Positions 48,326 through 62,029 of a stretch of DNA of 64,000 nt are shown here, piece by piece (position 1 is the first letter of the stretch; each line of letters starts with the position of its first letter). Position numbers and translations under genes: made by a program. Source of the stretch: Anaerolineaceae bacterium. GTDB lineage: Bacteria; Chloroflexota; Anaerolineae; Aggregatilineales; Phototrophicaceae. Under the pieces are notes generated by a model that saw nothing but the letters and a program-made list of their open reading frames with translations, was not told where the DNA came from and ran no database searches. Where the stretch lies: positions 1 through 64,000 of the forward strand of contig REDR01000079.1 of assembly GCA_007693385.1 (NCBI GenBank), given 5' to 3'.

Positions 48326-51300
48326 TTAATCGCTTTCACCTTCTTCTTCGGTCACGATATGCTCAGGCTGATAGTAAGGCAGGGCGATGTAGAATGTCGT
48401 GCCGACGCCCAGTTCCGATTCGAACCAGACGCGCCCACGATGCATTTCTACCAGCTTCTTCACGATAGAAAGCCCCAATCCGGTACCGGCTACATCCAGC
48501 GTGAGCGCGGTCTCGTCGTCGCGCTTGAAGCGCTCCCAGATGCTCTCGCGGAAGTCCTCCGGCACGCCCACACCGGTATCAGAGATAGCGATGGTCAAGA
48601 TTTTGCGCTCGTCATCCGGCTCAATCTCGACGCCTATAGTACCACCGGCTTCGGTGTAGTTAAAGGCGTTGTCCACCACGTTGTTGACCGCCTGCGTCAG
48701 CTTCTCCGCATCACCCTGAATGATCGGCACATCGTCCATCGCCTCGAACGTGACGGTGAAATTCTTATGCTGATGCTTCGGCTGGCGGCGGACATGCGTC
48801 AGCACTTGCTCCACCACGCTGTTCATATCGACGGATTGCACCGTCAACTTCTCGCGTCCGGCGTCGATCTTGGAGATGTTCAGCACGTCCTCCACCAGCG
48901 CCGCCAGCCGCGTCACGTTGTCGCGCACCGTATTCAACATCATCTGTTGCTGGTCGCCAAGCTCGCCGAACGCGCCCATCAGCAGAAGGTCATTGTACCC
49001 TTTGATTGATGTCAACGGCGTGCGGAACTCATGCGATACGTTCGCCACGAACTCCGCCTTGCTCTGGTCGGCCAGTACCTCGCGGGTGATGTCGCGGAAC
49101 ACCGATACCGTGCCCAGAAATTTATCTTCAGTATAAACCGGCGACAGATGCACGCTGATCGTGCGTTCGCCCAGCTTCACGCGCTCGTCCAGATATTCGT
49201 CGATTTCCTGCGGGTTGCGGAGCTTGCGCTCCAGCGTCTCCGCCCACGATTCCGCCGTCGCGCCATAAACGCCGGTCACTTTGCTCAACTGATGGCCGAT
49301 GGCCTCGCTACGCGGAATACGGAAGATACGCTCCGCCGCGTTGTTGAACAGCAAGATCACGCCTTCCGTGTCGGCCAGCACCACGCCGTCCGCGATGCCT
49401 TCCAGAATCGCCTTGTTCTTGTCCGCTTCTTCCTGCTCGGCGCGGAGCAGAGCGCCCAGACGTTCCGCTTGCTCGCGGATCATCTTGTACAGGTCGGCGT
49501 TGTTGATGCTCGCCGCGACCTGATTCGCCGCCGCGATAATCAGCCGTGCGTGCGATTCGCTGAAGGCGTCCGGTACTTCGCTGAGCAACACCATCATCCC
49601 CAGTAGCTCCTCGCTGGTTTCCAGCCGCACGCTGATCGCACTGCGCCATAGTGCCGCGTTGGGAATGTTTGCCGTGTCCCAATACGCCTGCGCTTGCAGG
49701 TCATTGACGACCACCGATTGCTCACTATCCAGTATCGCCTCGCGTGCGATGTGTTCGGCGGGGTGGATGCTCCGCTCCGCGTCGTCGGCGTCGCTGTACA
49801 TCATGTTCGGGTTCATCATGTAGCGCGTGTATAGCTGATCGGTGATCGGGTCTAGCTGGGTGATGACGCCATCGCCCGCGCCGATGGCCTTCGCCACCAT
49901 GCTCAACGCAATCGGCATCAGCACGTCCATGTCCAGCGTGCGTGATAGCTCCGATGTGATCTGGTATAGCGTGTCTAGCCTGTCGCGCTCTTCTTCTAGC
50001 TCGCTGGTGCGCTCCGCCACTTCGCGCTCCATCTCATCCGCGAATCTGGAAACTTGACGGAACAGCCGCGCATTCTGGATCGCCGCGCCCAACTGCGAGC
50101 CAACCGTCGTCAGGATGCGCTGTTCGTTGATCGTAAATGCGCGGGTGCGCTGTCTATCGCGCACCGCCAGCACGCCATACACCTCATCACCGGCGATCAA
50201 CGGCACGCCCAGATAACTCCGCGCATCGCCTTCGCCGTTGGTAATGCCCAGACTACGCCGCAATTCATCCGGCGAGTAATAATCCGCGCCCAGATTCAAC
50301 GGGCGGCGCTGGCGAATCACGAACGACACTTCATCGTCGTTCAATGTGCGCGGCGCGATGTCATACGGCTGGCCTTCGCTCACCGCCAACGGGAAGGTGA
50401 TCGCCTCCGTCTTGCTATCATACAGCGCCAGATAGATTTCACTCGCGCCGGTCACGCTCGGCAATTGCTCGCGCACCACGTCGAACATATCTTCCACGTT
50501 CAACGTGCTGGAAATAGCGCGGCTCAAATCGTTAATCATCAACGATTCTTCAAAGTGTGCGGTAGTCTCCGCCGATAGGCGGGCGTTCTCAATGGCGACG
50601 GCTACCTGCGTGCCCAGCGCCCGCGCCAGCCGTACCTTCTGCTGGGTGATGATCTCGCCGGTTCTAGCGCCCAGCACGATTAACCCGCGTGACGTTTCGC
50701 TGACCACCAGTGGCACCAGCAACCGCGCCGCGTCGCCGGTGCGCTCCATATCGGCGATTTCGTTCTGGTACGGGATGTCGTCGTTCTCGCGTGTGATGAC
50801 GATGACTTCGCGCTGACGTAGCGCTTGCAACCGCGCCGGATAATCGGCCAGATCGTATGTCGTCCCCTTCTGCGCGACCTGCGTATCATCCTGCCCGCGA
50901 TTCATCTCTAACTGAACTTCCAGCAGGTTATCGACCTCATCCCAGATCATGATGGCGCATTCGTCCATCTCCAACGCGCTGAACATCAATTCGACCACCG
51001 TCTTGAACACCGACGCCAGATCGGTTGTCAACGATGTCGCCTGCGCCGCCTCTAGCAACGTTCCCAATTCGTTCGTGCGGTCAAATGTCTGCTCGAACAA
51101 ATCAGCATTCGCCAGCGCGATAGCGACCTGACTGGCGAACGCGAACGCCACGTTCTGATCGGACGGACTATCGTACAACCCGTCGCGCTCGTCGGTCAGC
51201 ATCATCATGCCCACCACATGCCCCTGATTCACCAACGGCACGCCCATCCAACTGTGGAAATCACCATACGGCACGGTTTCCGGCAATTCCACGCCGCCAC

Positions 51301-54300
51301 CGGCGGCCACCACTCTCTGCGATTCCACCATGCGCCGGATCACATCATAATCGCTGAACAGGAAGCGCTTATCTGCCGCGCCTGCTTCGCTCGTCTCGCG
51401 TTCCAGCACCATAAACGAGCCGTTGCGCCGCCACACCGACATGCGGCTATGCGGAATCAACCACGCCATTTCTTCCATCGCCAGCGTCACCACTTCATCA
51501 CGCTCAAGCGATGACGTGATGCGCGTCGAAACTTCGGTGAGTGCGGTCAACTGGTTGGCGCGGGATTCCATCGCTTGCTCCAACCGTGAGCGCTCCGTCA
51601 CGTCCTCCACCAGCACCACCGTGCCGCTTGTCGTGTCGCCATACCGTAGCGGATAAATATAGAAATTCGTGGTGATTGTCTCGCCGTCTTCCGTCTCGAT
51701 ATATTGGCCGGTTATATTGGTCGGCGTGGCCTCCGTCAATGTCGTCTGCAAAGATTCGTCGATGATGTCGGCCACTCCCGGCAGATAGTCGTGGATGGTC
51801 TGGCCGGTCATGCGCCGCGCCCATTGATAGCGTTCCACCAGAAAACCGTTGATCGATATGACGCGGTTCTGCCGGTCTAGCACCATGATTCCCTGCTGGA
51901 TCGATTCCAGCACGGACTCATTCAGCGTCCGCAGGTTCACCGCTTGATCGAACAGGCGGGCGTTCTGCACCGCGCTAGCCACCAATTGCGCCATACGGCG
52001 CATCAGGCCGCGCCCTTCGCGGAAGGGCGTCGCGTCACTGTTGCGACTGCCGATGTGCATCACCCCTAGCGCTTGCCCGCCGGTCACCAACGGCAACACT
52101 AACGTCGTGCGCTCGCCTTCTTCGTACCACGCCGCCACATCATCGAACTCGGTGATTTCGCTATCGCCGGATTGAATCAGGTAGTCGCGCCGTTCCGCAT
52201 AGCTGTTATTCAGGATGCCGTCGCCTAAATCAGGCGCGATCTCCATTCCGATTTGTGGCCGCCCACTCATCATCGTCACCGATGACAGATAGAACTCGTT
52301 TTCCGCCGTGCGAAGCGCGAACGTCATGCGGTCATACGATAGCATCGCCAGCGTACCGCGCACCACCGCCGCCACGATCTCGTCGATGACCAGCGTGCCC
52401 GATACCGCCTCCAGAATGTCATTAAGCCGCGCTTCCTGCTCCGCGCTGGCAACACTGGACAGATACAGCCGCGTATTCTCGATGGTGGACGCCGCTTGAT
52501 TGGCGAAGATTTCCAGCACCTCAACCGTGCCGCGATCAGGTCGCCGGTTATTGTATGGCCGGTCAAGGCACATCAAGCCGACCAGCCCGCCGGACGGCCC
52601 GACCATCTGCACGATGAACAGGTCGCCGTCGTGCCAGCTATCCGCGTCGGACATATCCAGCGTGCGATTGCCGTCATAGTGCGTACTCAGCGCCTCGATG
52701 CCTTCGACGTACCATTCGCGCAAGCGCTGAACCGGAAAGAAATAAGACTCGCTGATACGGAAATCCGCCCTGAGTAATTCCTCTAGCTTGGCCTCGCTGA
52801 TGCTACTCCCGCGTGATTCCTCGAATTGGTCAATCGGCATCCCCGCTTGCGCCACGCGCCGCAAGATACCGGCTTCTTCGTCCAACAACAGCATCACAAT
52901 GCTATCAAAGCCGACGGATTGCTGGACGCTATAGGCGATGGCTTCCAGAATGCTGACCGGATCGGCGTTACTCTGTACCATGTGGCCTAGCTCGAAGATG
53001 CGGTTAAGCTGATCGACACGCCGCCGCAAATTCTCACTGCGCTCTAACTGCTCGCTATAGCGCACCGCGTTCCCGTAAGCCAGCGACGCCTTGACCGCCA
53101 TCGTCATCAAGAACGCGCTAGCGCGGTCATCGAAGTGACCGGCGTCCGGGTGATACAGATGGATCAGCCCGACGATTTGCTCCACGTAGATGATCGGCAC
53201 CACCAGCGCCGAACGCGCCCCCGATGGTTCCGACTTAAATGTACTCAATTCGTAGTCGGTCACGTTCACCGGCGCGGAGCGATTGCCTATCGCTTCCACT
53301 TCGACATCGGTCAATCCGTCGATCTCGTCGCCCAGATGCAAACGTTGCACCACGACATAATCAGTCTCTAGCAGATCGGCCTCGCTCTGCCGCGCCGGAC
53401 GTATCAAGGCAATCGTGCAGTCTTGCGCTTTCGTCGCCCGCACCGACTCCTCGCGGATCACCTGCAAAATCTGCGTCAAATCGAGCGTGGTGGTTAGCTC
53501 GTTACTCACCCGCGATACCGCGTCTAGTTCTTCGATGCGTCGGCTCAGATTCTCGCCGGTGGCTTCGTACAACAGCAGGCGATCCAGCGCGGCGGCGATC
53601 TGCGCGGCGACGGCCTGCATCACTTCCAGATCGTTGCGGCTGAGCGCTGTCGTGCCGCGTCGGTTAGCGATGCCGATTTCGCCCAATGTGCGATCACCAA
53701 ACACCAGCGGCACCACGATGCAATCGCGCAAACTCAAACGTGTGGCGATCTGCCGGTAGCTCTCCAGAATGCGCTCATCGTCCTGCGCGTCATCGGTGAT
53801 GAACGGGCGTTGCGACAACACCACGCTATTCTCGAAGCCCGGGCTGTACATATCCTGATATATCGGCTCGGACAGTTGTGCCCCATAAACCCAGCGCGGA
53901 AACGTCACCAGATTTCCGCCGTCCACCACATTGATGAACACGATTTCCACGTTATTCAATCCGGCGATTTCCGCCAGAACCGGCGTAAATGTCTCCTGCG
54001 AAGTCAACACATTACCGGCCAACTCCGCCACTCGCCGCAAGCTCTGCGCCTCTTCCGCGCTCCGTTGCGCTTCGCGGAATAGGCGGGCGTTCTCGATGAT
54101 GGCGGCGGCTTGCGTGGCGAAGATCATCAGCAGGCGGGCGTCGCTCTCGCTGAAGTCCTCGCCGTCCGTCTTGTTGGCCGCCTGCACCAGACCGATACGC
54201 CGTCCGCTCGCCTGCATCACGCCGAACATCGTCTTTTCAATGCCCATGCGGGCGTTGATCTCGTCCAATCCGGCGGCGAAGAACAGCGTATCCGCCGGTA

Positions 54301-56050
54301 CGCGGTTGCTGTACCAGTAGCGCTCTTCCTCCCACAATTGCAACATCACGCTACCGTTGGGCACATCCACGCGATAATCGGCGGCGATCGCCGCATCCAC
54401 TCCATAAATTGGCAACTGCGCCACCAATTGCGCCGTCGTTGGATCGTGTAGCAAAATCGCCGCGATCTCAATGTCCATCAACTTGGCGATGCGCTCGGTG
54501 ATGTCGCTGTAGAATTCCGCCTCATGGCTCAACGCGCCGATGGCGTTGGTGATTTCCTGCAAGCCGATTAACTCCGCGTCCATGCGTTGCTCGCGCTCGA
54601 ACAAGCGCAAATTCTCGATGACGACGGCGGCCTGCACCGCGAGAATCGACAAATTCTGCACGTCCGGCGTCGAGAACCCGCCTTCGGTGCGCTTGTTGCT
54701 CACCGCGATCACGCCGATGCGCTCGCCGCCCAGCGATAGCGGCATCCATGCCGTGTTTTTGATACCGGCCAGACTGACCACCGGTGATAGTCCCAACGCT
54801 TCGACCAGCGGCTCGTCCGGCACATCGTTCGATAGCCAGTATTGTTGATTCGTCCAGATGTCATGCTGGGGGGAGTCGTCGGTTAGGGGGATGAAAATAT
54901 TCTTCACCAGCGCATCCGGCAGACCGTGAACCGGACTCTGCATTACCAGCCCGTCGCGCTCGTCGTCATACAGCAGAATGCCGCACATATCCGCGCTCAG
55001 CAAATCCGCGACGCGCTCATTCAGCATCGCGTAAATCTGGCCGGTGCCGCCCGTCTGCGCCTGACTGACATCGACGGCCTGCTGGAACGTGGCAATATCG
55101 CGGATGCGTTGCGCCTGTCCGCTATATACATCGGTGTTGTAGATGGTCACGGCGGCGGGCTTGGCGATGGCTTGCAATAGCGCCATGTCGCCCGCCGTAA
55201 ATGCTCCCACCTGACGATTCGCCATCTCCATCGTACCGATGAAGCGCTCGCCCAATATGATCGGCACGCCGACAAAGCTCTGATATTCGGTGGGGAGTTT
55301 GGTGGGGATTGCGGCGCGTTCGTCCGCCGTGTTGAGCAATACCGGACGGCGGTTCTTGGCGATCCAGCCGGTGATGCCTTCTCCGGCTTCGTACTTGCCG
55401 CCCGCCGACGCCAGCTCGATCAAATACGTGGTATCGCCCGCCCAACCGCGCTGATACAGCACTTCGTCCGCCTCATCCCACAGGCTGATCTCCGCCGCAT
55501 CAAATGTGATGTGCTTGCCGATGATGGTCAGGATCGCTTGCAGGGCAGGCTCTAGCCCCAGCGTGACGTTCACCGTGTCGCCGATCTCATTGATGATCGA
55601 CATGGCGCGGTTCATATCCAGCATATCCGGATTGCTGGCGTTCCCCGCAAGCGGACGCATCACCACGATGATCCGCGCTTGCTCCGTGTCTTCGATGCGA
55701 TGCGATGACGCTTCCATCCATTGCTGGTCAAACTGAAACGACGCCTGACCTTCACCGGCGAACAACCCCAGAAAATGATCGGCGGGTTCGGCCATCTGCG
55801 CCACCTGTTCCAGATTAGCCCGCCCGCCATTCAGCTTGAACATGCGGCGGGCTGGCGGATTCAGGTACAGCAATCTGCCGTGTTCATGGGCGACGATCAC
55901 CGCGTCGTCGCTTCCGGCGCCCGGCGGCGTCACGTCCTCGTCCACGAAGAAATCCGTCTCTCTGGATGGCGCTTCCTGCGAACGTGCCCAGAAATAAATC
56001 CATGCGATTGTGACCGCACCGCCCAGAAATAGCACAAATGCCAAATTCAT
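48326..56050 (-). CDS. Giant hybrid-sensor histidine kinase with ~11 GAF and 3 PAS domains
   Basis: A 2574-residue histidine kinase. A single N-terminal membrane helix (AFVLFLGGAVTIAWIYFWA) is followed by a PAS domain (about 40-135), seven GAF-like domains in tandem (about 150-1415), a second PAS, four more GAF-like domains to about 2210, with a coiled-coil stretch before the last, and a third PAS. The kinase core starts at NVSHEFRTPLTSIKG with His2340. It contains N-box Asn2461, the DTGVGVP and GTGLGLSIVKKL motifs, and an acidic tail. The GAF count comes from reading repeated patterns (IENARLF at the end of each), so it is ±1. No GAF Cys typical of a bilin-binding phytochrome is evident, so ligands are unknown. 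It lies between two response-regulator genes. Confidence 0.92.
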   Translation of the reverse strand: MNLAFVLFLGGAVTIAWIYFWARSQEAPSRETDFFVDEDVTPPGAGSDDAVIVAHEHGRLLYLNPPARRMFKLNGGRANLEQVAQMAEPADHFLGLFAGEGQASFQFDQQWMEASSHRIEDTEQARIIVVMRPLAGNASNPDMLDMNRAMSIINEIGDTVNVTLGLEPALQAILTIIGKHITFDAAEISLWDEADEVLYQRGWAGDTTYLIELASAGGKYEAGEGITGWIAKNRRPVLLNTADERAAIPTKLPTEYQSFVGVPIILGERFIGTMEMANRQVGAFTAGDMALLQAIAKPAAVTIYNTDVYSGQAQRIRDIATFQQAVDVSQAQTGGTGQIYAMLNERVADLLSADMCGILLYDDERDGLVMQSPVHGLPDALVKNIFIPLTDDSPQHDIWTNQQYWLSNDVPDEPLVEALGLSPVVSLAGIKNTAWMPLSLGGERIGVIAVSNKRTEGGFSTPDVQNLSILAVQAAVVIENLRLFEREQRMDAELIGLQEITNAIGALSHEAEFYSDITERIAKLMDIEIAAILLHDPTTAQLVAQLPIYGVDAAIAADYRVDVPNGSVMLQLWEEERYWYSNRVPADTLFFAAGLDEINARMGIEKTMFGVMQASGRRIGLVQAANKTDGEDFSESDARLLMIFATQAAAIIENARLFREAQRSAEEAQSLRRVAELAGNVLTSQETFTPVLAEIAGLNNVEIVFINVVDGGNLVTFPRWVYGAQLSEPIYQDMYSPGFENSVVLSQRPFITDDAQDDERILESYRQIATRLSLRDCIVVPLVFGDRTLGEIGIANRRGTTALSRNDLEVMQAVAAQIAAALDRLLLYEATGENLSRRIEELDAVSRVSNELTTTLDLTQILQVIREESVRATKAQDCTIALIRPARQSEADLLETDYVVVQRLHLGDEIDGLTDVEVEAIGNRSAPVNVTDYELSTFKSEPSGARSALVVPIIYVEQIVGLIHLYHPDAGHFDDRASAFLMTMAVKASLAYGNAVRYSEQLERSENLRRRVDQLNRIFELGHMVQSNADPVSILEAIAYSVQQSVGFDSIVMLLLDEEAGILRRVAQAGMPIDQFEESRGSSISEAKLEELLRADFRISESYFFPVQRLREWYVEGIEALSTHYDGNRTLDMSDADSWHDGDLFIVQMVGPSGGLVGLMCLDRPYNNRRPDRGTVEVLEIFANQAASTIENTRLYLSSVASAEQEARLNDILEAVSGTLVIDEIVAAVVRGTLAMLSYDRMTFALRTAENEFYLSSVTMMSGRPQIGMEIAPDLGDGILNNSYAERRDYLIQSGDSEITEFDDVAAWYEEGERTTLVLPLVTGGQALGVMHIGSRNSDATPFREGRGLMRRMAQLVASAVQNARLFDQAVNLRTLNESVLESIQQGIMVLDRQNRVISINGFLVERYQWARRMTGQTIHDYLPGVADIIDESLQTTLTEATPTNITGQYIETEDGETITTNFYIYPLRYGDTTSGTVVLVEDVTERSRLEQAMESRANQLTALTEVSTRITSSLERDEVVTLAMEEMAWLIPHSRMSVWRRNGSFMVLERETSEAGAADKRFLFSDYDVIRRMVESQRVVAAGGGVELPETVPYGDFHSWMGVPLVNQGHVVGMMMLTDERDGLYDSPSDQNVAFAFASQVAIALANADLFEQTFDRTNELGTLLEAAQATSLTTDLASVFKTVVELMFSALEMDECAIMIWDEVDNLLEVQLEMNRGQDDTQVAQKGTTYDLADYPARLQALRQREVIVITRENDDIPYQNEIADMERTGDAARLLVPLVVSETSRGLIVLGARTGEIITQQKVRLARALGTQVAVAIENARLSAETTAHFEESLMINDLSRAISSTLNVEDMFDVVREQLPSVTGASEIYLALYDSKTEAITFPLAVSEGQPYDIAPRTLNDDEVSFVIRQRRPLNLGADYYSPDELRRSLGITNGEGDARSYLGVPLIAGDEVYGVLAVRDRQRTRAFTINEQRILTTVGSQLGAAIQNARLFRQVSRFADEMEREVAERTSELEEERDRLDTLYQITSELSRTLDMDVLMPIALSMVAKAIGAGDGVITQLDPITDQLYTRYMMNPNMMYSDADDAERSIHPAEHIAREAILDSEQSVVVNDLQAQAYWDTANIPNAALWRSAISVRLETSEELLGMMVLLSEVPDAFSESHARLIIAAANQVAASINNADLYKMIREQAERLGALLRAEQEEADKNKAILEGIADGVVLADTEGVILLFNNAAERIFRIPRSEAIGHQLSKVTGVYGATAESWAETLERKLRNPQEIDEYLDERVKLGERTISVHLSPVYTEDKFLGTVSVFRDITREVLADQSKAEFVANVSHEFRTPLTSIKGYNDLLLMGAFGELGDQQQMMLNTVRDNVTRLAALVEDVLNISKIDAGREKLTVQSVDMNSVVEQVLTHVRRQPKHQHKNFTVTFEAMDDVPIIQGDAEKLTQAVNNVVDNAFNYTEAGGTIGVEIEPDDERKILTIAISDTGVGVPEDFRESIWERFKRDDETALTLDVAGTGLGLSIVKKLVEMHRGRVWFESELGVGTTFYIALPYYQPEHIVTEEEGESD

Positions 56051-56086: not shown

Positions 56087-57019
56087 TCACCACGAAGTCG
56101 GGATCGGGGTGCTCGCGTCCCCGCTTTCGCCCTCTCCGCGACGACGATTATCGGCGGCTAGTTCCGTGATCTCGCGGATGTCGGAGAATTGATGCGTGCG
56201 CGTGGACACAATGCCAATCGCCAGCGACATCAAATTGACCTGTTTCTCCGCCCCGTTGCTATCCGGCACGAGAATATAGCCGCGCTCACGGTCAATGAAA
56301 GAATAATGTTGTTTGATGCCCTCGCCGAAGCGATCCTGAAGGCGGTTTTGTACCTTCTTTGTGTCCTCAGCGTGGGTGATGATGATGAAATTGTCGTTGC
56401 CCGGATGCCCGATAAAGTCATCCGGCGTGCCGATGTCGTCCACCACCTCGCGCAACGCCATCGCCATGAAGCGAACCACCTCATCGCCCGCCACAAAACC
56501 GTATACCTCGCGGAACTGATCGAATGTGTTGATCTTCACATCCAGATAAGCCCATTGCTGATTCTCGCGCATTAAATTCCGCAGATGATCCTCAATCAGC
56601 GTGCCGGTGGGCAACTGCGATTTCGGGTCCAGATTGACCTGCCGCTTGGCGGCGGTGATCGCGTTCTGCACCCTCAGCTTCAACTCCTCGATGTCGAACG
56701 GCTTGGTCACATAATCATCCGCGCCCAGTTCCAGCCCGATGATCTTGTCGCTCCGTTCGTCACGTTGCGTCAAAAAGATGATCGGCACATGCTTGGTGCG
56801 GGTGGTGGTTCGCAACTCCCGACACACATCATAGCCGTTCATATCCGGCAACATGATGTCCAGCATGATGAGATCAGGCAACTGCTTGCGCGTCATCGAC
56901 AGCGCATCGCCACCACGCGGCGCGACCTGCACCTCGTAGCCTTGCCCGCTAAAATAAATCCGCAACATATTTGATATGTCGAAGTCGTCCTCGACGACCA
57001 AAATCCTGCCTTTACTCAT
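56087..57019 (-). CDS. Response regulator with degenerate GGDEF domain
   Basis: A 310-residue regulator. The receiver domain (1-125) is intact: Asp11-Asp12, phosphoacceptor Asp54, Thr84 and Lys106 (VTKPF). The C-terminal ~160 residues follow a GGDEF fold, but the active-site loop reads HPGNDNFIII instead of GGDEF, so diguanylate cyclase activity is very unlikely. It may bind nucleotide or work by dimerisation. It is the first gene of the histidine-kinase operon, 36 bases before the giant kinase, and therefore its likely cognate regulator. The ATG follows a weakly purine-rich site. Confidence 0.9.
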   Translation of the reverse strand: MSKGRILVVEDDFDISNMLRIYFSGQGYEVQVAPRGGDALSMTRKQLPDLIMLDIMLPDMNGYDVCRELRTTTRTKHVPIIFLTQRDERSDKIIGLELGADDYVTKPFDIEELKLRVQNAITAAKRQVNLDPKSQLPTGTLIEDHLRNLMRENQQWAYLDVKINTFDQFREVYGFVAGDEVVRFMAMALREVVDDIGTPDDFIGHPGNDNFIIITHAEDTKKVQNRLQDRFGEGIKQHYSFIDRERGYILVPDSNGAEKQVNLMSLAIGIVSTRTHQFSDIREITELAADNRRRGEGESGDASTPIPTSW

Positions 57020-57135: not shown

Positions 57136-58242
57136 CTAACCTAAGCGTTGTTTCGCTGACCATACCCGCCGGTTCGCCTGTGCTCTCTCGCGCACCGCCG
57201 CGATATGCTCCGCGCTGACCGGCTTCTCGAAACTGCGAAAACCCGACAACCGGAAGCCGTGACGATGCGCGATTTCCTGTATCTGTAACGCCTGCTCAAT
57301 GCTGATCTGCTTGCCCAGCGTGTAATTCTCATAGCGGCCTTCCAGCGCCAGCGCCATCGTCTCCGCCATGCACGCATACGCTTTTCCGGACGGGAAGCCA
57401 AAATCAAAATTGAAATTCACCGCGCCCGGTATCTCCACCATGCCACCCTCAATCACCAGCACATCGTCGCGCTGGTCGGCCACCTGCCGCGACACATCAC
57501 GCGGACGCGCCACATCACACACCACCGCGCCCGGCTTCAGATGTTGCGGCTCGATCACCGTGTCGATAGCGCTCGTCACCGTCAACACCAGATCAGCCTC
57601 GTACATCGCCGCCAGCGCCGTACTCACGCGCACATCCGCCATCTGCCCCTCACACTGCTCGCGCACCGCGTTCAACGCATCCTCACGCCGTCCAATCAAC
57701 GTCAACGCGCCACACTCCCGCGCCAACAACGCCGCGCAGGTGCGGCCAATCGCCCCTGACGCGCCGACGACGGCCACCGTCGCGCTTTCCAACGGGATCG
57801 CCATCTGCCGCGCCGCTTCTTGCACCGCTTCCACCGCGATCACGACGGTGTAACTATCCCCCGTCGTCACCGGAATGTCAAGGTTTTTGGCAATCGTCAC
57901 CCCCGCATCGCCGACGACGGCGGTGAACGCCCCCAGCCCTAGAATCTTCGCGCCTAGCTTTTCCGCCATGCGCCCCGTTGCGATGATTTTATTGTAAACT
58001 ACCGCCTCCGGTAACGATAACATGCGCTGAGGAGTCAACGGGCAGGCCAACAGCCAGCCGGTCAGTTCATTGTGGCTGTGCGTCGAACGCACCCCCTCCA
58101 CCTGTGATAGATACACCGGCGGGAAGAAGCGCGACAGCCAGTTAATCAGCCCGTGACTGGCATAGTTGAAGATCGGATATTTACGGGCGACATCCCGTTT
58201 AATATCAATCGGATGGATGATAAAGCCGAATGTGTCGGTCAT
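57136..58242 (-). CDS. Acyl-ACP reductase (AAR)-like protein
   Basis: A 368-residue protein resembling cyanobacterial long-chain acyl-ACP reductase, which reduces acyl-ACP to a fatty aldehyde. The start FGFIIHP, LGLGAFTAVVG (101-111), TTGDSYT (126-132) and the nucleotide fold VAVVGASGAIG (156-166) match the AAR pattern. The segment YACMAETMALALEGRYENYT (from residue 289) carries Cys291, which corresponds to the acyl-thioester cysteine of AAR (Cys294 in Synechococcus). I base this on family knowledge, without a database search. The aldehyde-deformylating oxygenase is not in the window. It lies 9 bases after the left-handed beta-helix protein gene and shares its operon. A shikimate-dehydrogenase-like domain alone would also explain the Rossmann motif, but not the cysteine segment. 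Confidence 0.75.
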   Translation of the reverse strand: MTDTFGFIIHPIDIKRDVARKYPIFNYASHGLINWLSRFFPPVYLSQVEGVRSTHSHNELTGWLLACPLTPQRMLSLPEAVVYNKIIATGRMAEKLGAKILGLGAFTAVVGDAGVTIAKNLDIPVTTGDSYTVVIAVEAVQEAARQMAIPLESATVAVVGASGAIGRTCAALLARECGALTLIGRREDALNAVREQCEGQMADVRVSTALAAMYEADLVLTVTSAIDTVIEPQHLKPGAVVCDVARPRDVSRQVADQRDDVLVIEGGMVEIPGAVNFNFDFGFPSGKAYACMAETMALALEGRYENYTLGKQISIEQALQIQEIAHRHGFRLSGFRSFEKPVSAEHIAAVRERAQANRRVWSAKQRLG

Positions 58243-58251
58243 GCCTGCCTT

Positions 58252-59574
58252 TTACCAGTTCTCCCATGTGCCTTCTGGCTCATGGATTTCGTCACGACGC
58301 GGATAAAAACGCTTGTGAATGTCGCCATGCGGTATGAAATGATGGTCGCTCTCCTCATACGATACATTGCGCGAGATAACGCGGCGTTGCGGCGACGCCA
58401 CCAGCACCACATCCGACTCGATCATGCGGCCCGGAAAGACCACCATCCCCGACCCGATGCGGCAATTATGGCCGACGGCGCTCCCCAGTACGATCTGGCT
58501 CACCGTTTGCAGTTCGTTGTCGATATTGGCGGCGCGTATCGGCTTCTGCGCGATCAAGTTGAAGTCGGTGAACGTATTGCCCGCGCCGACAAAACTATTG
58601 CGCCCGATCACGCACATCTGCAAGCATGTATTCTGCGCCACAATCGTATTTTCCATCACGTGCGTCAGATACAGCGCGGCGCGGAACGGCAAAAAGCACC
58701 CGTCGCACACCGTACTCATCATCAGCACGCAACCGGCATCAATCGTCACGTTATTGCCAATCGTGCAGTTATCCACGATAGCGCCCGCGCCGATGGTCAC
58801 ATTGTCGCCGATTTCTGCCGGGCCGGTGATGATCGCCGACGGATCAATCGTGCAGTTCTTGCCGATCTTCACCGCGCCGGATGCGCTTAAAATCTGCTTC
58901 TGTTCCAGTACCGCCCGCCACAGCATATTCAACTGGGCGAACACGCTACCCTCGATGCGCGTGTCCAGCCGTCCCGCCCGCCCGAAATTGCCGTAGATGA
59001 TCGACGCGAAATACACATGCACCCAGCTCTCAATCGACACGATAGCGCGGTGCGGCGCGTAATGCGTCAGGTCGCCCTGTTCCATCGTCATGAAGTCCGG
59101 CACCGCGTAAAAGCCGATCTCGCGGCTATCGCTCGGCACCACCACCGGCTGAATATCCGGTTGATAACCGTCCGGAAAGTACCATAAATCAGCCAGAAAC
59201 AAAATCTTGTTGTCCGGCCCCATCGTCGCCTCGAAGCCCTTCGTTAGCGGGATGGTGTACGTGTGGAACGCTTTATCACTGGCGGGGAAGGCCGCACGGC
59301 ATGGCCGCCCCAACCGCCGCGCCTTGCGGATGAAATACTCGAAGAATGGCCGGTCAAACCACAAACTATCGCGGTAGACTACCGCCTCGCCGCGTACTTC
59401 GTGCAATCCGTCACGGCTGTGCAATGCCCCCGCAAGGTCAATGTTCTCCTGCAAAACATCCGCGAACAGATTTTCCTGATGCAACTTCAAAGGCTCCAGC
59501 CCGATAGTCAACAGGCTGGCCGGTTCGTTGAATGGCGGCACATGCCGCGTGTCCTCAATAATGTAACGATACAT
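58252..59574 (-). CDS. Left-handed beta-helix (hexapeptide-repeat) protein
   Basis: A 440-residue protein with two hexapeptide-repeat blocks (IGKNCTIDPSAIITGPAEIGDNVTIGAGAIV, then IGRNSFVGAGNTF and VGHNCRIGSGMVVF) forming a parallel beta-helix typical of acyl- and sugar-nucleotidyltransferases. The N-terminal ~220 residues are not a recognised catalytic domain. No obvious catalytic His is assigned. It may be an acyltransferase that uses the product or substrate of the adjacent AAR-like reductase; this is only inferred from linkage. A strong promoter (59607-59635) lies directly upstream. Confidence 0.75.
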   Translation of the reverse strand: MYRYIIEDTRHVPPFNEPASLLTIGLEPLKLHQENLFADVLQENIDLAGALHSRDGLHEVRGEAVVYRDSLWFDRPFFEYFIRKARRLGRPCRAAFPASDKAFHTYTIPLTKGFEATMGPDNKILFLADLWYFPDGYQPDIQPVVVPSDSREIGFYAVPDFMTMEQGDLTHYAPHRAIVSIESWVHVYFASIIYGNFGRAGRLDTRIEGSVFAQLNMLWRAVLEQKQILSASGAVKIGKNCTIDPSAIITGPAEIGDNVTIGAGAIVDNCTIGNNVTIDAGCVLMMSTVCDGCFLPFRAALYLTHVMENTIVAQNTCLQMCVIGRNSFVGAGNTFTDFNLIAQKPIRAANIDNELQTVSQIVLGSAVGHNCRIGSGMVVFPGRMIESDVVLVASPQRRVISRNVSYEESDHHFIPHGDIHKRFYPRRDEIHEPEGTWENW

Positions 59575-59606
59575 AGCTCGCGCTCCGGTGCTGTGCGAAG
59601 TACCCC

Positions 59607-59635
59607 ATTATAACGCAACTTACGCTATAAGTTAA
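59607..59635 (-). promoter_or_regulatory. Promoter of the beta-helix/AAR-like operon
   Basis: On the minus strand TTAACT (59630-59635) and consensus TATAAT (59607-59612) are exactly 17 bases apart. Start near 59600 gives a leader of about 26 bases before the ATG at 59574. Confidence 0.65.
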
Positions 59636-59684: not shown

Positions 59685-59704
59685 GGGCGCAAGGCCTTGC
59701 GCCC
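59685..59704. repeat. Perfect 20-base palindrome, likely terminator or REP
   Basis: GGGCGCAAGG directly joined to CCTTGCGCCC, about 40 bases beyond the hydrolase stop. Loop-less perfect dyads of this sort are often intergenic REP elements; it may also help end the hydrolase transcript. The remaining 172-base gap (59575-59746) shows only the promoter above. Confidence 0.55.
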
Positions 59705-59746: not shown

Positions 59747-60535
59747 CTAGCCATTCAGCAGAAAATCGCGGATGGCATCGTGGAAGCGATCCGGCTCATC
59801 CATCATCGGGAAATGGCCGGAACGCTCGAACCACGCGATCTTGCTACTCGGGGCGCTTTCTTTGAGGACTTGCGATTGACTCGGCTTCACGATGCGGTCA
59901 TATTTGCCATAGATGCCCAATACCGGCATCGGCAAATTGCCGATCTGATCGCGCAGGTCAGTTTGACGTAACGTGCCGATGCTCTGGAAGAACGATTCCG
60001 TCGAAATCTTCGACATATCCTCGACGATCATCTTCCCGACCAGATGGCCGTCATGCGCGATGAAATGCGCGTACCCGCGCATGAATAGTTTCAGTAGGGC
60101 AGGGGTCGTCCAGATGATGCGGGCGATGCCGCGATAGCCGGACAGCTTCAACAATAAATTCAACGAACTACCGACAATCGGCGAACCGATCACCGTCGTC
60201 TTGACGATCTTCTCCGGAAAGCGCACCGATGCCGCCAGCGACACCGTGCCCCCCATCGAATGACCGATCAACGGCGCTTTCGGGATGCCCAGCCGATCCA
60301 TGAACTGTTGCACCGAGTTCACATAATTATCAACCGAAAAATTCGCCTGATGATCGACGGATTCGCCGAAGCCGAAAAAATCTAGCGCATACGTCCGAAA
60401 TTCCTTACCCAGAATCTCAATCGTATTGCGCCACAAAGCCCACGAACCCAGCCAGCCATGCAAAAGCAAAACAGGGCGTCCGCGGCCATAGGTCTCATAA
60501 TGGACGATACCCTGTTCGGTGACCAGCGTTGGCAC
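59747..60535 (-). CDS. Alpha/beta hydrolase
   Basis: A 262-residue serine hydrolase with a full triad. LLLHGWLGSW (23-32) forms the oxyanion hole. The nucleophile is Ser93 in GHSMGG, and the acid and His lie in IYGKYDRI and RSGHFPMM. The substrate is not predictable; relatives include esterases and C-C hydrolases. It is closely similar in the first ~100 residues to the nucleophile-less protein at 46769-47905, so the two are paralogues. It is the third gene of a DUF4388/GTPase operon, 23 bases after the GTPase. Confidence 0.9.
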   Translation of the reverse strand: MPTLVTEQGIVHYETYGRGRPVLLLHGWLGSWALWRNTIEILGKEFRTYALDFFGFGESVDHQANFSVDNYVNSVQQFMDRLGIPKAPLIGHSMGGTVSLAASVRFPEKIVKTTVIGSPIVGSSLNLLLKLSGYRGIARIIWTTPALLKLFMRGYAHFIAHDGHLVGKMIVEDMSKISTESFFQSIGTLRQTDLRDQIGNLPMPVLGIYGKYDRIVKPSQSQVLKESAPSSKIAWFERSGHFPMMDEPDRFHDAIRDFLLNG

Positions 60536-60558: not shown

Positions 60559-61089
60559 TTATTCCATCTCTTCGAGGATGGTGTACAGTAATTCCAGCAG
60601 TACATCGCGCACGCTGTCGCGCTCTTTAGCGACACACGGCAACAACTTCACTTCCGGCTCGATCCGTAGCGCGATACGCATGTCGTCCGGTTGCCATGCG
60701 TCCGGATGATCCTGCTTGTTGGCCGCCACCACGTAAGGCGTCGGCGCATAGGCGCGGAATGTCTCAAGGATGCTCTTCGCCTCGCGGAATGTCTCCGGCT
60801 TGGCGCTATCCACCATCACGATGAACCCCAGCATCCCCTCCGCCAGAATTTCCCACATGAAATCGAAACGGCGTTGACCGGGCGTACCGAACAGATACAG
60901 CACCAAATCATCGTCCACCGTGATCCGACCAAAGTCCATCGCCACCGTCGTTTGTTCTTTTTCCTCACGCTCGGCGACGCTGGAGATTTCGCGGTCGGTG
61001 GTCACAACGTCGATCTCGCTAATCGCCCGGATGAACTCCGTCTTGCCAGAACTAAACGGCCCGGTGATCACCATTTTCACAGTTTGCAT
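60559..61089 (-). CDS. Small Ras-like GTPase (MglA/CvnD-related)
   Basis: A 176-residue signalling GTPase. P-loop GPFSSGKT (10-17), switch II FGTPGQRRF (67-75), and G4 NKQD (124-127) are clear; the third motif has Gly instead of Asp in DTPGQ. It belongs to the bacterial Arf/Ras-like group found with roadblock or DUF4388 proteins, including CvnD. Such proteins cycle between GTP and GDP to control partner assembly. It lies 46 bases after the DUF4388 gene and 23 before the hydrolase; its partner is therefore probably the DUF4388 protein. Confidence 0.88.
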   Translation of the reverse strand: MQTVKMVITGPFSSGKTEFIRAISEIDVVTTDREISSVAEREEKEQTTVAMDFGRITVDDDLVLYLFGTPGQRRFDFMWEILAEGMLGFIVMVDSAKPETFREAKSILETFRAYAPTPYVVAANKQDHPDAWQPDDMRIALRIEPEVKLLPCVAKERDSVRDVLLELLYTILEEME

Positions 61090-61135: not shown

Positions 61136-62029
61136 TTAGATCGACTTGATTCTGTCGATCAATCTCGTAACAACGTCCTTGGACGGCCCCGGCTGGCGCG
61201 GTTTGCCCGTCTTGCCACCCTTGCCCGTCTTGCCACCCGTCGGCGCGCCCGGCTTCTCTTCGGTCAATGGCTTCACGATGTCCACCAGACCGGCCTGCTG
61301 TAGCCCGTAGACCACCCGCCGAATTTCCAACTCCGACATATTGTTCGCTTTAGCGATCTGCCGGATGGTGTTTTTAGGATTAACGTAGGATACCACACGC
61401 CACGCCTCGACGCTCAGGTGAATCCCCTTGAATTTCTCTTTCGGATTCTCCGGGAACTTCAGCGCCATATCCAGATTCGGGATGCTATCGCGCAGTATCT
61501 CATCGTTCTCGATGCGCCGCGCACCCTCGACAATCACATTCTCAAGATCAATCGGCACCAGAATCCGCGCCTTGTCCGGTTGGGCGCTCTCATCGAAGCG
61601 GAACGGCCCCTCCCGCCAGCTCATCAACTCGTACACCGTATCCAGCGTGTACTGCTGAATGCTGACCACAATATCTTTCTGCGTGACGTAATTCGCGCCG
61701 ATCAAACGCATCGCCAGCGCCTTATCACTCGCGCCCTTCGCCCGTTCACGGATGATCCGCGCCTGCTGATCGTTCAGCTTACCCGCCTTGCCCAGCACCG
61801 CCACCAGATCGCCCTTTTGACCGGCTAGCGTGGCCTGAACCAGCTTGCCGTCCTTAAATACGACGCGGGCGCGTTCCTCACCGGGCGCCATCTTCTCTTT
61901 GTCCATCGCGTCTTTTTCACCGGTGGGGACGCCCTCATGAATGAACAGCGTGCCGGTACGCCGCGACAGGTTCATCAAATTAAGCAGTTGTGTTGCTGTA
62001 AAATCTCTTAAGTTCCCTTGAAGCGGCAT
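61136..62029 (-). CDS. DUF4388 (PATAN) signalling protein with winged-helix segment
   Basis: A 297-residue protein. The N-terminal ~110 residues match DUF4388 (LRDFTATQLLNLMNLSRRTGTLFI...). The middle region (~115-220) is helical, with SWREGPFRFDES as expected for this family. A winged-helix-like part follows (IRQIAKANNMSELEIRRVVYGLQQAGLV), and a basic Gly/Lys/Pro-rich linker ends the protein. Such proteins are adaptors in GTPase and kinase signalling rather than enzymes. It is the first gene of the operon behind the near-consensus promoter at 62072-62100. A GGGGGG stretch before the ATG serves as ribosome-binding site. Confidence 0.85.
   Translation of the reverse strand: MPLQGNLRDFTATQLLNLMNLSRRTGTLFIHEGVPTGEKDAMDKEKMAPGEERARVVFKDGKLVQATLAGQKGDLVAVLGKAGKLNDQQARIIRERAKGASDKALAMRLIGANYVTQKDIVVSIQQYTLDTVYELMSWREGPFRFDESAQPDKARILVPIDLENVIVEGARRIENDEILRDSIPNLDMALKFPENPKEKFKGIHLSVEAWRVVSYVNPKNTIRQIAKANNMSELEIRRVVYGLQQAGLVDIVKPLTEEKPGAPTGGKTGKGGKTGKPRQPGPSKDVVTRLIDRIKSI

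Follow-up and report, generated by a model that had tools for sequence, protein, structure and literature searches.

Organization of the locus

The stretch of DNA analysed here, hereafter the window, comprises 64,000 nucleotides. On its minus strand it carries a reductase gene and the gene of a second protein, HEX, whose open reading frames lie 9 bases apart. Both frames, the numbering of Cys291 and the GASGAIG motif had been named in a preliminary description and were indeed recovered from the translation, ACMAETMALALEGRYE and GASGAIG being found together in the 368-residue frame. The features of the region are the following.

48326..56050, minus strand: open reading frame of 2574 residues, by appearance a GAF-rich sensor histidine kinase (read by eye), conserved next gene
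56087..57019, minus strand: GGDEF-domain response regulator, kept as downstream neighbour in 27 of the 28 Chloroflexota loci that have HEX
57136..58242, minus strand: putative acyl-thioester reductase of the AAR superfamily, 368 residues (open reading frame, profile matches, alignment with solved AAR)
57370..57372, minus strand: codon of Cys291, aligned with the catalytic Cys294 of S. elongatus AAR (bases and alignment)
57745..57765, minus strand: residues 160-166, loop GASGAIG for dinucleotide binding, corresponding to GATGDIG of AAR (translation and alignment)
58252..59574, minus strand: HEX, 440 residues, nucleotidyltransferase-like N-terminal domain and left-handed beta-helix (open reading frame, Pfam, predicted fold)
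58360..58875, minus strand: HEX residues 234-405, hexapeptide-repeat beta-helix (Pfam)
58957..59574, minus strand: HEX residues 1-206, sugar-nucleotidyltransferase-like domain (predicted fold)
59607..59635, minus strand: promoter-like site TTAACT-17-TATAAT, 10 of 12 (scan; number of such sites not above shuffles)
59685..59704, minus strand: hairpin of 8 counted pairs in the gap that separates the hydrolase gene from HEX, rated terminator-like in the scan (number of such sites not above shuffles)
59747..60535, minus strand: alpha/beta hydrolase, conserved upstream neighbour (domain scan, locus comparison)
60559..61089, minus strand: small GTPase, conserved upstream neighbour (domain scan, locus comparison)
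61136..62029, minus strand: DUF4388 protein, conserved upstream neighbour (domain scan, locus comparison)

The genes had also been placed behind a consensus promoter. A site of this kind does exist, but it is not above chance, because the region holds 3 promoter-like sites against 2.1 +/- 1.4 in shuffles; terminator-like sites numbered 4, compared with 3.1 +/- 1.8 in shuffles.

Family and catalytic residues of the reductase

Among the NCBIfam models, PigE (NF053554) ranked first for the reductase (214 bits, residues 5-358) and AAR (TIGR04058) second (116.6 bits, residues 5-331), both scores lying far under the curated equivalog cut-offs of 850 and 449.7 bits, respectively. The closest solved relatives were PigE (4ppm, E 1.2e-35) and AAR (6jzq, E 7.5e-28), the latter matching over residues 5-331. 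The best Pfam match was Shikimate_DH (PF01488), limited to residues 144-258 in the Rossmann part, and the HemA model of glutamyl-tRNA reductase reached 35 bits over residues 129-256 only, against a cut-off of 209.55; this enzyme and PigE-N are described as distantly related in the available portion of PMC8341465. Judged from its sequence, the window reductase is a member of the AAR/PigE/TamH thioester-reductase superfamily, as indicated by the nearly full-length relation and the catalytic Cys, and is not an AAR in NCBI's narrow sense, which calls for 449.7 bits. It shares with the reductase half of PigE (prodigiosin) and TamH (tambjamine) the Cys and the Glu, besides its best model and best solved sequence. 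Unlike PigE, whose members join a reductase and a class III aminotransferase in one chain scoring above 850 bits, it is without an aminotransferase half, and its gene neighbourhood differs from those of PigE and TamH. The earlier view that it closely matches cyanobacterial AAR was therefore right as to the superfamily but not as to closeness, the PigE reductase domain being nearer; that an AAR-type reductase occurs outside Cyanobacteria was borne out. In our tree, AAR is represented by a single row, whose branch measures 5.05 and whose placement has a support of 47/94, and neither PigE nor cyanobacterial AAR emerges as the nearer relative of the window clade. A search of PHROGs gave no match for the reductase or for c7, a partner protein described below.

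To map residues, we aligned the chain of 6jzq, whose numbering agrees with the structure paper in its available part (PMC7089970). The two proteins are co-linear over nearly their full length, and Cys294, Glu297 three residues on, Arg189 and the loop GATGDIG of AAR are kept as Cys291, Glu294, Arg185 and GASGAIG. In the alignment, the catalytic Cys is present in all 43 standalone Chloroflexota rows and in 16 of 16 rows from other phyla. In contrast, two of the three NADPH-phosphate arginines of AAR are lost (R193 is Ala189 and R314 is Lys311), and Tyr247 is replaced by Arg246, so cofactor and substrate details may differ from those of AAR. Two of the three ADO-docking residues tested are likewise lost (R73 is Pro78, R79 is Asn84), whereas K80 is kept as Lys85.

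Distribution of the reductase

A scan of genome contigs revealed relatives of 48-66% identity in 47 of 126 candidate stretches, implying an occurrence beyond chance. These 47 loci span Anaerolineae, other Chloroflexota, Bacillota, Armatimonadota and unassigned bacteria, which contradicts the earlier idea of a reductase special to this lineage. Among the papers listed for AAR-type homologues outside Cyanobacteria, none appeared to treat Chloroflexota. Within the window's class, a reductase match was obtained in 126 of the 298 sampled genomes (94 with a standalone reductase, 40 with a longer fusion-type frame and 8 with both); the corresponding numbers were 53/301 in the phylum sample and 36/59 in the class of Natroniella.

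Some relatives are parts of longer chains. One chain of 1538 residues (L064:560-5176(+)) matches a fatty-acyl-AMP ligase, the PigE aminotransferase and an AAR-type reductase, with a carrier segment between domains discerned by eye, and from these matches it is possibly a single-chain fatty-acid-to-amine enzyme. Genomes of the Natroniella class hold an aminotransferase-then-reductase chain of 875 residues (L105:3074-5701(-)) and a reductase-first chain of 853 residues (L106); since these differ in order, both arrangements of the aminotransferase and reductase domains occur.

HEX, the partner in Anaerolineae

HEX is present in 105 of the 298 class genomes and in 92 of the 94 with a standalone reductase. 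The close pairing with the reductase noted in the preliminary description was borne out, the reductase lying directly behind HEX at 86 of 95 places in the class sample. Of the nine others, one (G083) is separated from HEX by 789 bases, six (G146, G075, G055, G277, G257 and G049) do not share a contig with HEX, and the remaining two belong to genomes that gave no HEX match (G028 and G207). This strict gene partnership was also evident in the locus comparison, in which HEX is directly upstream of the reductase in 28/28 Chloroflexota loci with upstream DNA (two further loci, outside the 28, end before the upstream gene). In 12 non-Chloroflexota genomes, a search for HEX returned only three weak matches, all limited to the beta-helix. 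HEX is probably co-functional with the reductase. It also has a role independent of the reductase, because 13 class genomes carry it without a standalone reductase. In four of the seven such loci that were fetched (L078, L080, L082 and L083), the GTPase, hydrolase, HEX and response regulator genes are kept and the reductase gene is missing.

The neighbour had been described as a beta-helix protein. The helix is indeed there (PF00132, 54.8 bits, above the gathering cut-off of 27), but this description missed the nucleotidyltransferase-like N-terminal domain. The AlphaFold2 model of HEX, built with 27 sequences, had a mean pLDDT of 75.6, falling to 42-57 in part of the helix. Its best match by Foldseek was ST0452, a sugar nucleotidyltransferase with a beta-helix (5z0a_A, E 8.6e-8), and by VIA-align 5z0a_E (Z 17.0, rmsd 7.5, 322 aligned), so that the predicted fold resembles ST0452/GlmU-type proteins over residues 1-411. 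The nucleotide-binding signature of sugar nucleotidyltransferases is G-x-G-[TE]-R and, unlike in the ST0452/GlmU type, it was found in 0 of 50 HEX sequences. On the basis of the model and the missing signature, HEX looks like an inactive nucleotidyltransferase joined to a beta-helix, the whole perhaps still capable of binding or transfer. A gamma-carbonic anhydrase, which has three zinc-binding His in its helix, was rejected for the C-terminal domain: the only His conserved in at least 80% of sequences within residues 234-405 is His369 (50/50).

c7, the other partner, and its fusions

Outside Chloroflexota, as in Clostridia and Armatimonadota, c7 takes the position directly upstream of the reductase in 14 of the 16 loci whose upstream DNA was available, one of the two exceptions (L029) belonging to a genome without c7. 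In the Natroniella class, c7 and a reductase match occur in the same 36 genomes and in no others, although some of these reductase matches are the aminotransferase fusion on another contig (as in L105). In Chloroflexota, c7 is fused ahead of the reductase: nine long-frame loci of the window's class were inspected, of which eight are c7-AAR fusions (L058-L063, L071 and L072) and one is another fusion (L064), and four more c7-AAR loci were found in three genomes outside the class. Against an obligate pair of c7 and reductase, the c7-like gene occurs in unfused form only in 83 class genomes, and 39 of them are without a reductase match.

The c7 member that was scanned had no Pfam or NCBIfam match. 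The c7 model (13 sequences, pLDDT 86.7) best matched AAR (6jzu_A, Z 14.4, rmsd 4.2, 247 aligned), followed by the terminal domain of carmabin synthetase (Z 13.5) and other dehydrogenases (10.6 and below). However, AAR was not among the best 50 for c7 in Foldseek alone, and a profile comparison of c7 with AAR revealed no significant relation (E 0.34 for the co-linear alignment). No conserved Cys column was present in c7, and an Asn that is invariant in 13/13 sequences stands opposite the catalytic Cys in this weak, non-significant profile alignment. Because the model matches AAR, a conserved Cys is absent and Asn is opposite the catalytic Cys, c7 looks like a pseudo-AAR, that is, a predicted AAR fold with Asn in place of Cys. 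Two of the eight c7-AAR fusions are themselves without the catalytic Cys, having Ala (L063:3236-5455(+)) or Ser (L071:4126-6354(-)), and the reductase half of the former is also without the glycine loop; this loss of Cys likewise speaks against an obligate pair.

ADO, wax-ester synthases and the fate of the aldehyde

The absence of ADO, noted earlier for the window, was confirmed at the level of genomes: with the profile PF11266, which was positive for the control Synechococcus elongatus and could miss a divergent ADO, no ADO was detected in 21 genomes, the window's own and 20 relatives. The search for a wax synthase suggested in the preliminary description yielded one WS/DGAT wax-ester-synthase-like gene in the own genome, where wax synthesis is possible. 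However, WS/DGAT does not track the window-type gene. It scored over the cut-off in 72 of 298 class genomes and was rarer in those with only the window-type reductase (10/86) than in the rest (62/212), and a wax-ester role common to window-type genes at large was not supported. The WS/DGAT of the own genome (contig 127, L104:3279-5318(-)) has a weak SCP2-like tail, just under the cut-off, and adjoins an open reading frame that by eye looks like a patatin; the WS/DGAT in L113 has such a neighbour too.

The situation was different for the c7-AAR fusion, as WS/DGAT was present in 36 of the 40 genomes with it (Fisher p 6e-22), a link confounded by kinship because in fusion-bearing families, f20 and f43 among them, many genomes possess WS/DGAT but no fusion. 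Kinship accounts for at least part of this link. SCP2 or phasin genes were seen near the fusions in 4/8 loci (L058, L061, L063 and L071), in stretches of unequal length. The fusion also occurs in three large chromosomal contigs of 5,258,541, 5,801,598 and 6,346,587 bases, lengths that suggest Chloroflexus aurantiacus J-10-fl, Roseiflexus sp. RS-1 and Herpetosiphon aurantiacus. According to the accessible part of PMC4400912, wax esters are produced by both Roseiflexus and Chloroflexus, and the fused form as wax-ester reductase in phototrophic Chloroflexota is a lead. For the aldehyde/alcohol step of wax synthesis, the enzyme reported from other bacteria is FarA, AcrB or FcrA (PMC11948995, in the portion available).

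Proposed function and alternatives

Taken together, we propose, with a probability of roughly 65%, that the window gene encodes an AAR/PigE/TamH-like acyl-thioester reductase with HEX as its dedicated partner, and that its aldehyde, most likely long-chain, goes by way of an alcohol into a lipid. The assignment as an aldehyde-forming acyl-thioester reductase is well supported by the sequence comparisons, and it is likely that the substrate is long-chain and that the end-product is a lipid. In the mechanism that we infer, Cys291 would accept the acyl group of an acyl-ACP or acyl-CoA. NAD(P)H, bound by the GASGAIG loop, would supply the hydride that frees this group as aldehyde. The aldehyde would then be turned into an alcohol and enter a membrane or storage lipid, and would not become an alkane. 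HEX would serve as a binding or docking protein, its helix possibly having transferase activity. Activity has been reported for AAR, a relative of the window reductase (PMC7089970), and reduction of thioesters for PigE (PMC8341465) and TamH (PMC9594044), in the available parts of these papers.

The operon neighbours are mostly signalling genes and not lipid genes, which we counted against the lipid reading. The same chemistry might instead act on a short, branched, amino-acyl or polyketide thioester, for a signalling compound or secondary metabolite, as in PigE or the terminal domain of carmabin synthetase. That the PigE model outscores the AAR model, that the carmabin domain matches the reductase too (9e4x, E 1.7e-4), that several relatives are class III aminotransferase fusions and that sensor and GGDEF genes lie in the operon all speak for it. 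We nevertheless consider it unlikely, as carrier, adenylation and aminotransferase genes were not seen among the immediate neighbours of the window gene and the SCP2 and phasin genes are close to the sister c7-AAR fusions. The sensor, response regulator, GTPase and hydrolase genes conserved in the operon would also suit an envelope or glycolipid pathway under signal control, with HEX as an active acyltransferase drawing on the same acyl carrier pool as the reductase. Although its helix resembles LpxD/GlmU-type transferases and keeps His369 throughout, no catalytic residue of known transferases has been placed on HEX and the model is of low confidence in part of the helix, and we regard this explanation as improbable.

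Two further explanations were rejected. A Rossmann dehydrogenase of the shikimate or saccharopine type, without thioester chemistry, is very improbable: the Shikimate_DH match reaches 46.5 bits in the nucleotide-binding part alone, as opposed to 214 bits for PigE and 117 for AAR over nearly the full length with the catalytic Cys. The reductase is thus not closer to these dehydrogenases, a comparison that the preliminary description had proposed and that came out in its favour. The first half of a cyanobacterial-type alkane pathway, which the family resemblance to AAR could suggest, has next to no probability in view of the genomes without ADO and the loss of docking residues.

Beyond the acyl-thioester reductase and HEX of the window, we tentatively envisage, with considerable doubt, a two-part fatty-acyl reductase family in which an active AAR-type subunit is accompanied by a catalytically dead partner. 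This partner would be the pseudo-AAR in Clostridia, Armatimonadota and fused-form Chloroflexota, exchanged in Anaerolineae for a HEX-type protein (a dead nucleotidyltransferase with a beta-helix), and the fused form would be the source of wax-ester aldehyde or alcohol in phototrophic Chloroflexota. The window gene and its partners hint at a widespread lipid enzyme system. AAR-type aldehyde-forming enzymes would thereby be found not just in Cyanobacteria and a few antibiotic pathways but across a wide range of Chloroflexota, Clostridia and Armatimonadota. They offer candidates for the production of fatty aldehydes and alcohols, along with two partner proteins, HEX and c7, open to test. Should the fused form prove to be the reductase behind the wax esters of phototrophic Chloroflexota, a step would be filled for a lipid used as a biomarker.

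In several Clostridia, the c7-reductase pairs (L028-L041) are located among dusB-, greA- and lysS-like genes, as named by eye.
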